Source of the DNA: Bradyrhizobium sp. CB3481 | GTDB lineage: Bacteria; Pseudomonadota; Alphaproteobacteria; Rhizobiales; Xanthobacteraceae | Assembly (NCBI RefSeq): GCF_029714305.1 | Contig: NZ_CP121647.1 | Location: 3,058,501 to 3,122,500, forward strand | Direction of reading: 5' to 3' | DNA length: 64,000 bases | Part shown: in pieces, positions 59,863 to 64,000 of the stretch | Numbering within the stretch: the stretch's first letter is position 1 | How the letters are laid out: each line of letters begins with the position of its first letter | Notes under the pieces: generated by a model | What the model saw: only the letters and a program-made list of their open reading frames with translations | What the model was told of the DNA's origin: nothing | Database searches by the model: none | Position numbers and translations under genes: made by a program

Positions 59863-60537
59863 CTACAGGCTGGCGAGCCCGCATTCCACGGCGAGGCGGA
59901 CCAACTGGGCATCCGTGCGCATGCCGGTCTTGGTCTTGATCAGGTAGTGGTAGTTCTGCACGGTCTTCATGCTGAGATTGAGGTTGGCGGCGATCTGTTC
60001 CGTGGTCGCGCCGGCCGCCAGTTGCCGCAAGATCTCGATTTCCCGCTCGCCGAGCTGGTCGAGCAGCGAGTGCGAAGGGGACAGGCTTTCCATCGCCAGG
60101 ACGCGGGCAATGTCGTCGCTGATCGCCTGCTCGCCGCGCATGATCGAACGGATTGCCCGGATCAGCTCGGCCGGAGCGGAGCCCTTGGTCACATAGCCGT
60201 TGGCGCCGGCATTGAAGGCCGCCTTCACCTGCGCCGCCTCGCTATGCATGCTGAAGACGAGAATGCGGGTAGCGGAACTGCGGGAGCGGATGTTCCTGAT
60301 CGCTTCGAGCCCGCTGGCGCCCGGCATCGAGACGTCCATCACCACGACATCGGGGGCGTGCGCCTTGAAGGCGCGGTAGGCGTCGGCCGCATTGTCGGCC
60401 TCGGCCACCACATGGAAATCGTCCTGATGTTCGAGGACGCGGCGGTAGCCCTGCCGGACCACGGGATGGTCGTCAACGAGCAGGATCGAAATGGCGTGGG
60501 TCGAAGGGCCCTCGGCCGGGCTCTGCGACGCGGTCAT
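59863..60537 (-). CDS. NarL/FixJ-type response regulator
   Basis: 224 residues: receiver domain (about 17-135) with LLVDDHPVVRQGYRRVLEHQ, phospho-acceptor Asp68 in VVVMDVSMPGASGLE and the Lys in YVTKGSAPAEL; LuxR-type HTH (about 158-220) with LGEREIEILRQLAAGATTEQIAANLNLSMKTVQNYHYLIKTK. The ATG shares one base with the stop of the sensor kinase gene upstream (TGATG), so they are coupled. Longer frames are artefacts. Target genes are unknown; the divergent unit at 62104 is a natural candidate. Confidence 0.95.
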   Translation of the reverse strand: MTASQSPAEGPSTHAISILLVDDHPVVRQGYRRVLEHQDDFHVVAEADNAADAYRAFKAHAPDVVVMDVSMPGASGLEAIRNIRSRSSATRILVFSMHSEAAQVKAAFNAGANGYVTKGSAPAELIRAIRSIMRGEQAISDDIARVLAMESLSPSHSLLDQLGEREIEILRQLAAGATTEQIAANLNLSMKTVQNYHYLIKTKTGMRTDAQLVRLAVECGLASL

Positions 60538-61907
60538 CAGGCCGCAAGCGGGATCGTTGCGGCCACGCGCACCCCGCGAGTGGCGTCTGCAATCGACAGC
60601 GAGCCGCCAAGCGCGGTGATCCGCTCGCGAATGCCCGTCAGCCCGAAGCCGGTCGACGCCGCCACCTTGGCCGCATTGCCGCCGCCGTCGTCTTCGACAT
60701 GGACCAGCAGTGCGTTTTCCGCGCCGCTGCGCCGCTCGATCCGCAGCACAATCTCGCGCGCCGAACTGTGCCGCAGCGAGTTGGTCAGGCATTCCTGGGC
60801 CACCCGGTAGGCCGCCGCGGCAACCGCGCCGCGGACATCGGCGAGGTCGCCCTTGAGGTCGAGCTGGATCATCGGCTGCGCGGGATTGCGCGACCGCCAG
60901 CCGTCGACGAGATCGACCAAGCAGGCCTCCAGCCCGAGTTCCTCGGCCGGCGGATGGCGCAGGCGGTTCAGCGTGTCCCGCAGGCAGGCCATGATGCGAT
61001 GGGTGGCCTGCGAGATCATCCGCGCGTCCTGCGCGACCTCGTTGTTGCCGTGCTCCGGCGCGCTCGCGGCCTCGATCGTGTTGGCGAAGGCCAGGATCGC
61101 CGTCAGGTTCTGCCCGAACTCGTCGTGCAGCTCACGGGCCAGCGCGCGCCGCTCGTCACTACGGATTTCCAGCAGGCGCCGGGTCAGGGCGGCACGCTCT
61201 TCGGTGGCCAGCGCGAGGCGGTCGCCGAGTTCCCCGACGGCTTGCCCGATCATCGCCAGTTCCACCGAGCGCAAGCGTGGCAGCGGTGTCCGGTACTCGC
61301 CGCGCGCCATCTGCTGCAGCGCGGTCACGATCTGCCGCGCCGGCGCCAGCGTATGCGCAATCGCCAGCGAGGCGAGCAGGGCGATCGCGACCGCCATCAG
61401 AAGTGCGAGATGGATGTTGTCGAGCACATGCTGCCAGGCCAGCGCGATTGCGGCCTGCGGATCGGCCGTGGCCGACACGCTGCCGGCATTGGCGGCGCGC
61501 GCGCTGATGGGACGGACGACCGGGGCGTGGCCGCCAAGCACGGTATCCACGGCGGCCGCGAACCAGCGGGGCGGGGTCTGGCCGATGCCCTTGCTCTGGC
61601 CGCAGAGCGGCCTTTCGAACGCGCCCGATGGCTCGATCCGGACGCAGATGCCCGGCGAGATCAGGCTCATGGTCTGAATGGTGCGCCATTCCGCCGCCGG
61701 CACCAGCTGCTCGCGCATTCTGCTGCTGCGGAGCAATAACTCGCGCCAGTACAGCGCTTCGAGCGCGACCGAGACGCGCTCGGCGGAAGCCGACGTGGCG
61801 CGGTCGACGCTGCGATAGGCGTCGATCGTCGCCCAGATGGTGGCGGCCCCGAGGCACAGGATGACGATGATGAACAGGCGAGCGACGAGTTGAAGCACGA
61901 GGCGCAT
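60537..61907 (-). CDS. Sensor histidine kinase (HisKA_3 type)
   Basis: 456 residues: membrane segment 1 (about 7-28), a periplasmic sensing stretch (about 35-160) with two cysteines (SPGICVRIEP, PLCGQ) that could form a disulfide, membrane segment 2 (about 166-188), HAMP (about 190-240), HisKA_3 dimerisation with phospho-His261 in ARELHDEFGQNL and a HATPase with VEDDGGG and GFGLTGIRERI. It pairs with the response regulator downstream. It is divergent from the ExbB-like unit, 196 bases apart. Confidence 0.95.
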   Translation of the reverse strand: MRLVLQLVARLFIIVILCLGAATIWATIDAYRSVDRATSASAERVSVALEALYWRELLLRSSRMREQLVPAAEWRTIQTMSLISPGICVRIEPSGAFERPLCGQSKGIGQTPPRWFAAAVDTVLGGHAPVVRPISARAANAGSVSATADPQAAIALAWQHVLDNIHLALLMAVAIALLASLAIAHTLAPARQIVTALQQMARGEYRTPLPRLRSVELAMIGQAVGELGDRLALATEERAALTRRLLEIRSDERRALARELHDEFGQNLTAILAFANTIEAASAPEHGNNEVAQDARMISQATHRIMACLRDTLNRLRHPPAEELGLEACLVDLVDGWRSRNPAQPMIQLDLKGDLADVRGAVAAAAYRVAQECLTNSLRHSSAREIVLRIERRSGAENALLVHVEDDGGGNAAKVAASTGFGLTGIRERITALGGSLSIADATRGVRVAATIPLAA

Positions 61908-62103
61908 GCGATCACTCCGCGGGCGGTGCCGCCGAGCCTAACAGCACTGCCGGGCGGTGCCAATTGCAAGCAGGTCGTGAGATCAGGCTTGGGAAATTTT
62001 CCCAACAAACCCTGGGCATATCTCTTTGGACGGCGTCGTGGTGGCTGATCTAACAAGGGGGCCGATGCCGCTTTAGAGGACGGCCTGCCAGGAGCTGCGC
62101 AGC

Positions 62104-62859
62104 ATGAGTGTCACGGCACGCGCCGAAACCGTTTCATCCGCTGACACCTCGGAGCGCAGCGTCCTCCTGCTATGGATGATCTTCACCGGCCTGTCGGTGT
62201 TCGCCTGCTTCGTTCTCTGGCGCTACGGGCTGCTTCATCTGATGGTCGTCTCGGACCGCACCTATATTTCGAGCGTCATCGCGGTCCTCTACGTCGCCAC
62301 CTGCTTCCATTGCTTCTGGCGGAGCCGGGCCATCGCGCGCGAGGGCGAGATCGCGCGGCGCTGCCGCGCCGTCCTGTCGGCACCGGGCGGGGCGAGGGCG
62401 CTCGCCGATGCGCATGCGCTGCCGACGGGGATGGTGCCGGATCACATCCGCAGCCTCGTGCAAAAGGCGGAGGCGCAGACCGGAGGACGGATCGACCAGA
62501 CGCTCCTGCTGCGCTCGCTCGCCGACCGCCTGCGCGGCTCCAACGGGTTTGGCGCGTTCGTCTCCGACACGCTGATGAAGCTCGGCCTGCTCGGCACCAT
62601 CATCGGCTTCATCATCATGCTGGCGCCGATCGCAACGCTGGATGCGGCCGACAAGGTCGCGATGAAGTCCTCCATGGGGTTGATGAGTGATGGCATGGCG
62701 GTCGCGATGTACACGACGCTGGCCGGCCTGATCGGCTCCATCCTGGTGAAAATCCAATACTACATGCTGGATGCCGCGACCCAGCGGGTGTTTTCCGACG
62801 CCGTCGTGCTGACCGAGACGCACGTCACGCCCGCGCTGGAACGCCGTCATGATGGATGA
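62104..62859 (+). CDS. MotA/TolQ/ExbB-family proton channel protein
   Basis: 251 residues with membrane segments at about 20-40, 55-72, 158-176 and 196-216. The last two carry the family motifs TLMKLGLLGTIIGFIIMLAP and GMAVAMYTTLAGLIGSILVKI. The cytoplasmic loop between segments 2 and 3 is shorter than in MotA. Such proteins form proton-driven stators that power partners in the periplasm. It overlaps the next gene by 11 bases. No tonB, exbD, tolR or motB is seen in the window; the two following membrane proteins may fill that role. Confidence 0.88.
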   Translation: MSVTARAETVSSADTSERSVLLLWMIFTGLSVFACFVLWRYGLLHLMVVSDRTYISSVIAVLYVATCFHCFWRSRAIAREGEIARRCRAVLSAPGGARALADAHALPTGMVPDHIRSLVQKAEAQTGGRIDQTLLLRSLADRLRGSNGFGAFVSDTLMKLGLLGTIIGFIIMLAPIATLDAADKVAMKSSMGLMSDGMAVAMYTTLAGLIGSILVKIQYYMLDAATQRVFSDAVVLTETHVTPALERRHDG

Positions 62860-63523
62860 TTTCGGCCTTTATCCGCGCGAGGAGCCGTTCGATCCGCTCG
62901 GCGTGATGCTGTTCAAGGCGCTGCAGGTGATCGCGTTCCTGTTTTTCCTGGCATTGCTGGCGGCGTCGCCCGATGCCAAGGACGGCAAGATCGATTCCAA
63001 GGCCGAGTTCATCATCACCATGGACTGGCCTGATAATCACCCTGACGATCTCGACCTGTTCGTGCAGGACCCTGCCGGCAACATCGCCTGGTATCGCCGC
63101 CGCGAGGCCGGCTTCCTCACGCTCGACCGCGACGACCGCGGCGGCGCCAACGATTTCATCATTGTCAACGGCAGGAAGATCCCGTCGCCGATCCGCGAGG
63201 AGATCGTTACCGTGCGCGGCATCGTGCCAGGCGAGTACACCGTCAACGTCTCGCACTTCCAGGCCACCACCGGCCAGCCTGTCACCGTGAACGTGAAGGT
63301 CCAGAAGCTCAATCCGTCCGCGCAGGTGATCTTCGACAACAAGCTGACCGTTGACCACACCGGCCACGAAAAGACCGCGCTGCGGTTCTGGCTCGATGCG
63401 GAGGGCAAGGTGATCGACGTGCAGCAGCGGCCCAAATCGCTGATGGAGACGTTCCGGAACGTCCGCGCCAACGGCGCCGACATCGATCCGAAAACTGGTG
63501 TCAGGATGCCGCGCCGTGAGTAG
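62849..63523 (+). CDS. Single-pass membrane protein with periplasmic beta domain, ExbB-like partner
   Basis: 224 residues: a short cytoplasmic N-terminus (MMDDFGLYPREEPFDPLGV), one membrane segment (LFKALQVIAFLFFLALLAA, about 22-40), then a periplasmic part. This has DLDLFVQDPAGNIAWYRR, reminiscent of DUF2135-type sandwiches, and GEYTVNVSHFQATTGQPVTVNVKVQKL. The topology is that of ExbD/TolR/MotB but the periplasmic domain is not. The ExbD-type aspartate in the membrane helix is absent; acidic residues lie just before it. No named family is sure. Confidence 0.8.
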   Translation: MMDDFGLYPREEPFDPLGVMLFKALQVIAFLFFLALLAASPDAKDGKIDSKAEFIITMDWPDNHPDDLDLFVQDPAGNIAWYRRREAGFLTLDRDDRGGANDFIIVNGRKIPSPIREEIVTVRGIVPGEYTVNVSHFQATTGQPVTVNVKVQKLNPSAQVIFDNKLTVDHTGHEKTALRFWLDAEGKVIDVQQRPKSLMETFRNVRANGADIDPKTGVRMPRRE

Positions 63524-64000
63524 CCTGCAGTCGGTCGTCCTCACGCTCTCCATCAGCTACGCGCTGGTCGGCGCGCTGCTCCTGGTCGTGCTGGTCTATG
63601 CGCGGCTGCCATGGCAGGCCAAGGCGGCGGCGGTGGTCGTGACCAGCGCGTTCTACATCGCAAGCTTCGTCGGCGTGCGGGGCCTGCTCGGCTGGGCGAC
63701 CATCGACCGCCTGCCGGCCAGCTTCAAGCTCTTGCAGGTCCGCATCGTGGAGCCGCATTCGTTGGAGGGCGATCCGGGCTCGATCTATCTCTGGGTCGAG
63801 GCGCTCGACGACGGCAACCGGCCGAGCGGCATCCCGCGGGCCTACCGTCTGGCCTATACCGACCGCCTCGCGCAGAAGAGCGACAAGGCCGCCGGCGAAA
63901 TCGCCGCCGGCCGGCCCCAGGGCGGCCGGGCCGCCGATTTCGGCGATGGTGGGGGCAGCCTGCTGCAGGCCGCCCGGGAATACATCACGCCGGGCACCAT
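63516..64000 (+). CDS. Membrane protein of the ExbB-like unit (3' end outside window)
   Basis: The visible 161 residues start at GTG 63516, inside the end of the previous gene (8-base overlap). Two membrane segments: SVVLTLSISYALVGALLLVVLVYA and AAAVVVTSAFYIASFVGVRGL, then a soluble part beginning FKLLQVRIVEPHSLEGDPGSIYLWVEALDDGNRPSGIPRAYRLAY with a Gly/Ala-rich linker. No known domain recognised. The tight overlap makes it the third gene of the unit. The open frame runs to the window edge. Confidence 0.8.
   Translation, partial: MSSLQSVVLTLSISYALVGALLLVVLVYARLPWQAKAAAVVVTSAFYIASFVGVRGLLGWATIDRLPASFKLLQVRIVEPHSLEGDPGSIYLWVEALDDGNRPSGIPRAYRLAYTDRLAQKSDKAAGEIAAGRPQGGRAADFGDGGGSLLQAAREYITPGT

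Follow-up and report, generated by a model that had tools for sequence, protein, structure and literature searches.

A three-gene module with a MotA/ExbB/TolQ-type channel protein in Bradyrhizobium, other Alphaproteobacteria and phages, found with and without a helix aspartate

In this report, we examine three overlapping genes, here named A, B and C, at the end of a 64,000-nucleotide stretch of the Bradyrhizobium sp. CB3481 genome (hereafter the window, G000:C1:3058501-3122500, from an 8.04 Mb single-contig genome; Table 1). An original prediction, made from the letters of the window, had described a channel gene overlapping that of a single-pass protein with a beta domain, which overlaps that of a two-pass protein, with a NarL-type kinase/regulator pair diverging 196 bases away. 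Reading frames, a structural model and hydropathy agree with the first part of this description, and coordinates and Pfam domains with the second, the 196 bases separating the kinase start from the start of A. A and B overlap by 11 bases, and the end of B overlaps C by 8. Gene C most likely begins at a GTG codon, its frame being open already from another GTG at 63498, and runs 124 bases beyond the window (whole gene, L002:7017-7625); extending the sequence past base 64000, as had been suggested, completes gene C.

Table 1. Genes and candidate regulatory site at the A-B-C locus, in window positions.
Feature	Position	Strand	Description
Gene A	62104-62859	+	251 aa, four-pass MotA/ExbB/TolQ-type channel protein
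Gene B	62849-63523	+	224 aa, single membrane helix and periplasmic beta domain
Gene C	63516-64124 (window ends 64000)	+	202 aa, two-pass, C-terminal domain; start most likely GTG 63516, stop at 64124
Histidine kinase	60537-61907	-	HAMP, HisKA_3 and HATPase_c by Pfam; divergent from A
NarL-type response regulator	59863-60537	-	224 aa; Response_reg and GerE by Pfam
Palindrome GGGAAATTTTCCC	61991-62003		Between divergent kinase and A; candidate operator

The product of gene A is a member of the MotA/ExbB/TolQ family. It matches PF01618 (MotA_ExbB; E=1.9e-8, 34.6 bits against a cut-off of 22.9), as do 19 of 19 scanned A relatives (E up to 1), and the genome as a whole holds six PF01618 matches. 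Hydropathy assigns A four membrane passes, and its cytoplasmic part is short; phage A proteins are compact, at 113-158 aa in eight stretches. The candidate pore residues are the threonines T165 and T205, equated with the TolQ pore threonines by motif rather than by structure, and an acid, D196, stands at the start of the fourth helix. Across 21 Bradyrhizobium relatives, A is 67-87% identical to the window copy.

Gene B encodes the less conventional partner. In its model, a single helix spans residues 16-39 and a beta domain spans residues 54-192, in line with the earlier claim of a partner that keeps the usual topology and carries a different periplasmic domain. Membership in ExbD/TolR, which the prediction had proposed to check by profile search, is rejected by profile: PF02472 (ExbD/TolR) does not match window B at E up to 1 and finds three proteins in the genome, B not among them, and a whole-protein profile comparison of B with ExbD gave nothing, although the helix alone aligns in register (see below). 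An OmpA-type domain was not found in B either (Pfam scan, E up to 1). No Pfam family scores above its cut-off for window B, and at E up to 10 only PPC and RNA_pol_Rpb2_4 appear, both below theirs. The beta domain of the predicted fold matches solved TerD proteins over most of its length, and the periplasmic domain is thus predicted to be TerD-like. At the sequence level, the TerD family is absent from the Pfam matches of window B and from those listed for relatives (25 of 39). A Foldseek comparison of B with the PDB gave no confident match; the B profile found weak matches only among PDB sequences (best a subtilisin-like protease, E 0.075), and a Bradyrhizobium-only B profile found none. Five acids, D67, D69, D95, D96 and E118, are invariant in the B family, which is suggestive, and only suggestive, of calcium binding.

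Gene C completes the set with a two-pass protein (by hydropathy), in which a PR pair followed by an LPYS-like motif is common across the family alignment. Neither B nor C scores above the cut-off of any Pfam or NCBIfam model, C having been scanned as its window part. In Bradyrhizobium hereditatis, gene C (L003:6668-7273) contains an in-frame stop codon.

Scanning genome contigs with B yielded 153 confirmed relatives; in the best 80, which were retained, B is 81-96% identical to the window copy. By tblastn, A, B and C are all matched at 80 of 80 kept Bradyrhizobium-type loci, some of which are cut by contig ends. Stop-to-stop frames seem to miss A at 14 of 78 Bradyrhizobium loci, an artefact, since tblastn finds A in all 14. 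More widely, in genome samples that partly overlap, B relatives occur in 19 of 119 genomes of the family, 30 of 297 of the order (Bradyrhizobium-only profile), 59 of 385 of the class and 22 of 398 of the phylum, the last six being weak, short matches. B-like stretches were also found on seven Azospirillum plasmid records (NZ_CP007794, NZ_CP032322, NZ_CP012915 and four more; E about 1e-10). Among different B sequences of the genome set with enough flanking DNA, A lies directly upstream in 66 of 69 and C directly downstream in 70 of 72.

The module also occurs in phages. B relatives are present in 27 of 50,697 phage records (E up to 0.01, RefSeq copies included), all of them Rhizobium or Sinorhizobium phages, and B queries taken from IMG/VR find the same two genera only (27 phage records with L150, 21 with L202). 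A, B and C occur in 8 of 8 phage stretches read, where they are annotated as 'hypothetical protein' or by a bare number. Although a viral scan with the Bradyrhizobium-only alignment found no relatives, the broader alignment showed them to be encoded by 124 of 145 IMG/VR candidate stretches, of which 80 were kept; among different loci whose flanks are long enough, A precedes B in 61 of 62 and C follows it in 59 of 59. The three-gene order, whose conservation the prediction had proposed to examine, is therefore kept in Bradyrhizobium, in other Alphaproteobacteria, in phages and in viral contigs. Because A, B and C match at every kept Bradyrhizobium-type locus and recur in the same order far outside that group, their association exceeds chance; because the genes flanking them differ from family to family, the three form a unit.

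The viral copies stand in varied surroundings. The T4-type major capsid protein Gp23 was detected in 10 of 22 tested records (9 of 19 IMG/VR contigs, 1 of 2 phage records and 0 of 1 bacterial genome), so that at least ten are tailed phages; from gene content and sample numbers, we would guess that the viral contigs are largely marine. In a survey of 149 of 151 selected flanking proteins from 48 thinned viral loci, the neighbours were mixed: ClpS (7), Hsp20 (7), SbmA/BacA (6), one family of head closure proteins (4), three Rz-like spanin families of two members each, and the lysis inhibitors RIIA (1) and RIIB (2). Other lysis-type neighbours include, next to the prophage copy of L130, a gene that by eye resembles an endolysin gene, a GH108 protein in L144 and lysozyme annotations about 3.5 kb away in L138 and L140. 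Such genes, together with those for the spanins and lysis inhibitors, had suggested a lysis cassette, a reading that was dropped since the viral flanks are mixed. A gene of the SbmA/BacA peptide-transporter type lies near A-B-C in 12 of 66 different IMG/VR loci (L142, L149, L150, L164, L166, L168, L172, L202, L207, L208, L212 and L218), and two of its products match PF05992 at 1e-117 and 5e-134. Some rhizobial phages harbor homing-endonuclease-like genes inside the A-B-C cassette (L138:6162-6920 and L140:7439-7981, annotated; L139:6243-6980, by eye). Additionally, in 16-3-like phages a trypsin-like peptidase gene lies directly upstream of A (annotated at L136:7235-8134, L138:5030-5740 and L140:5481-6128), with a further one upstream of A recognized by likeness at L139:5048-5770.

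Published accounts come close to this module at one point. Among the matches listed, the nearest description is that of Lentisphaerae phages, for which the accessible part of the source reports ExbB as a potential auxiliary metabolic gene energising a TonB system (PMC11361711); the likeness is an ExbB-type gene in a phage, whereas the TonB-energiser reading differs and a three-gene module is not mentioned in that part. Searches on phage-encoded ExbB/MotA channels and ExbB auxiliary metabolic genes, and on DUF2135 together with ExbB, TolQ or MotA, gave no description of A-B-C among the matches listed, and a search for ExbB in Rhizobium phage and for MotA, TolQ and ExbB together in phage genomes gave no match. 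The accessible text of PMC10460002 contains neither of the terms p040 and p038.

The helix of B separates the relatives into two types. In the window copy it lacks aspartate: Asp15 immediately precedes the helix, and Val19 and Lys23 lie within it. Among 227 different B rows, three are gapped at the decisive column, leaving 224 scorable, of which 117 carry aspartate (45 bacterial and 72 of 72 viral), 106 valine and one alanine. All 106 valine rows have a lysine four residues further on, which no aspartate row has, and this Lys23 is the only charge inside their helix (17-39); aspartate rows carry D19, a few with another charge close to one end of the helix. The claim that the partner helix has no aspartate therefore holds for the window copy and fails as a family trait. 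Moreover, the 117 Asp-type helices align aspartate to aspartate with 28 ExbD helices (score 16.8; the best of 100 column shuffles reached 12.6), while Val-type helices do not align in register in the same comparison. From these alignments, B and ExbD appear to share a related helix; no wider kinship is claimed, because the whole-protein comparison gave nothing.

Since phages and most bacterial relatives outside the window clade (Bradyrhizobium and kin) carry the aspartate in the ExbD register, its absence within the clade is best read, from the alignment and tree, as a derived loss. A tree built from 105 B rows, with thinning at 85% identity, groups the Val/Lys rows in a single clade, which falls within the Asp rows provided that the root is placed outside it (98/92); without the helix columns two changes are needed, one being still compatible. 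A separate loss of the helix aspartate is seen in L241 (G603:C45), with Ala19, Glu15 and Lys26. The channel protein differs between the two types as well. In 217 paired A rows, T205 is present throughout (105 of 105 Val/Lys-type and 112 of 112 Asp-type), T165 in 209 (104 of 105 and 105 of 112), and an acid, D or E, occupies position 196 in 103 of 105 Val/Lys rows versus 5 of 112 Asp rows.

The divergent two-component system follows the same division. Counting different loci with at least 700 bases upstream, from the aligned start of A, a divergent kinase adjoins A in 89 of 103 Val/Lys loci (72 of 78 Bradyrhizobium, 17 of 25 others; stop-to-stop frames give a lower figure, 65 of 78, for Bradyrhizobium) and in 0 of 100 Asp-type loci (0 of 33 bacterial, 0 of 67 viral). 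The palindrome GGGAAANTTTCCC, with at most two mismatches, precedes A in 86 of the 89 kinase-bearing loci, where shuffled sequence predicts 0.5, in 2 of 14 Val/Lys loci without the kinase, and at none of the Asp-type loci (0 of 44 bacterial, 0 of 68 viral); these loci come from related species, so the counts are not independent. The two-component link is thus confined to the window clade, and the joint loss of kinase and palindrome fits a candidate regulator site. The palindrome is separated from the kinase start by 83 bases and from A by 100, and so may act for the kinase gene, for A or for both. The proposal that the neighbouring two-component system controls the output of the module cannot be a general rule, because no examined Asp-type locus has the kinase, but it is plausible within the clade and, on the overall pattern of co-occurrence, probably correct there. 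The window's genome contains three exact copies of the palindrome. The second (L319:2749-2761, G000:C1:1052248) lies near genes that by eye resemble exopolysaccharide export genes, and the third sits inside an open frame; two additional sites are too few to carry meaning, and the idea of a palindrome-defined regulon was rejected.

Ion-driven motors of the 5:2 type place five A subunits around two B subunits, and ion flow drives B. The layout of A and B shares features with several known systems. Like ExbB-ExbD and TolQ-TolR, the module pairs a MotA/ExbB/TolQ family protein that keeps both pore threonines with a one-helix partner, which in most relatives outside the clade bears an ExbD-register aspartate; it differs in the four helices that hydropathy gives A, in a B that falls outside PF02472 with another periplasmic domain, and in the missing aspartate of the window copy. 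The likeness to MotA-MotB lies in a four-pass A and a one-pass B, and the difference in the OmpA-type domain undetected in B and the short cytoplasmic part of A, very short in phages. C, with two passes, is unlike TonB or TolA. Unlike the TerD family of tellurite-resistance Ter proteins, B has no TerD sequence match in Pfam, and its TerD-like domain is joined to a membrane helix and periplasmic by predicted topology. In the accessible parts of the cited sources, the essential TolR Asp23 is adjacent to TolQ Thr145 and Thr178 and the axle aspartate is regarded as indispensable to the Ton, Tol and flagellar motors (PMC12215075), the conserved MotB aspartate is the proton-binding site (PMC9389320), and varied 'generic ion transporters' with unknown extra domains are described (PMC12505986).

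The best explanation of these observations as a whole, and one we favor by a modest measure, is that A-B-C is a phage-shared relative of ExbBD, TolQR and MotAB that has been rewired in the window clade. We infer that the three proteins would form the inner-membrane engine of an envelope machine: A would be the ring, B the axle, whose periplasmic head is predicted to be TerD-like and may bind calcium, and C a two-pass accessory subunit. Among phages, and among most carrier Alphaproteobacteria outside the window clade, the axle has an aspartate that would carry the ion, and proton flow past the threonines of A might turn or shift B so that its head does work on the envelope. Phages would carry a copy of their own with which to act on the envelope of the cell they infect. 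In the window clade, aspartate has given way to valine and, one helical turn on, asparagine to lysine; A has gained D/E196 at the mouth of the fourth helix, and beside the genes stands a divergent two-component system together with a palindrome of its own. The resident version may thereby have dropped the classical aspartate relay, being gated or coupled differently via K23 and D196, and would be made on demand under the two-component system. The predicted 'new proton-driven envelope machine' accordingly survives in part: the module is new and related to the Ton, Tol and flagellar motors, with two non-standard partners and a conserved order, and proton drive is likely in the Asp-type relatives, but it is the weakest part of the claim for the window copy because the aspartate is lost in that clade.

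That same loss, complete in all 106 clade rows, could instead mean that the motor of the window has degenerated or is locked: A and B would still assemble but conduct no ions, the complex would persist for a structural or sensory function, and the kinase pairing would reflect signalling. Cations would presumably be repelled by a positive charge near the threonine ring, and the two-component system occurs only with the window clade, both in keeping with such a role. Yet both A and B are well conserved within Bradyrhizobium, the pore threonines are kept, and the asparagine-to-lysine change is fixed and does not drift, pointing to selection for a new role; we regard a locked motor as unlikely, if deserving of serious weight. 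Less probable still is an ordinary proton-driven motor in which the role of carrier has passed to Asp15, a residue one helical turn nearer the cytoplasm. D15 does stand directly before the helix in the model and is shared by all 106 Val/Lys rows and by 29 of the 45 bacterial Asp rows, with none among the 72 viral rows, but its coexistence with D19 in relatives means that it did not originate as a substitute, and K23 is left unexplained. A Zorya-like anti-phage system can be set aside as highly improbable: A matches ZorA weakly (PADLOC best E=1.2e-5; NCBIfam best 3.6e-4, at 19.6 bits against a cut-off of 500) and is short (251 aa versus 383 to 1063 positions in the listed ZorA models), B and whole C give no PADLOC hit at E up to 1, and phages themselves carry A-B-C.

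In the boldest form of the rewired-relative reading, which we put forward tentatively and with more doubt than confidence, phages and Alphaproteobacteria would share a family of ring-and-axle motors with calcium-binding, TerD-like heads, in which one lineage has inverted the charge of the axle ion site, losing the aspartate and gaining a lysine while keeping the threonine ring. If true, this would be a natural motor coupled via a base or a different ion rather than an aspartate relay, and switched on by its own two-component system. The 106 different B rows without the aspartate, with a lysine fixed nearby and the threonines of A kept, offer a natural experiment on the conversion of ion flow into force. 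Furthermore, phages with an aspartate-bearing A-B-C suggest that some of them supply an envelope motor of their own to the cell they infect.
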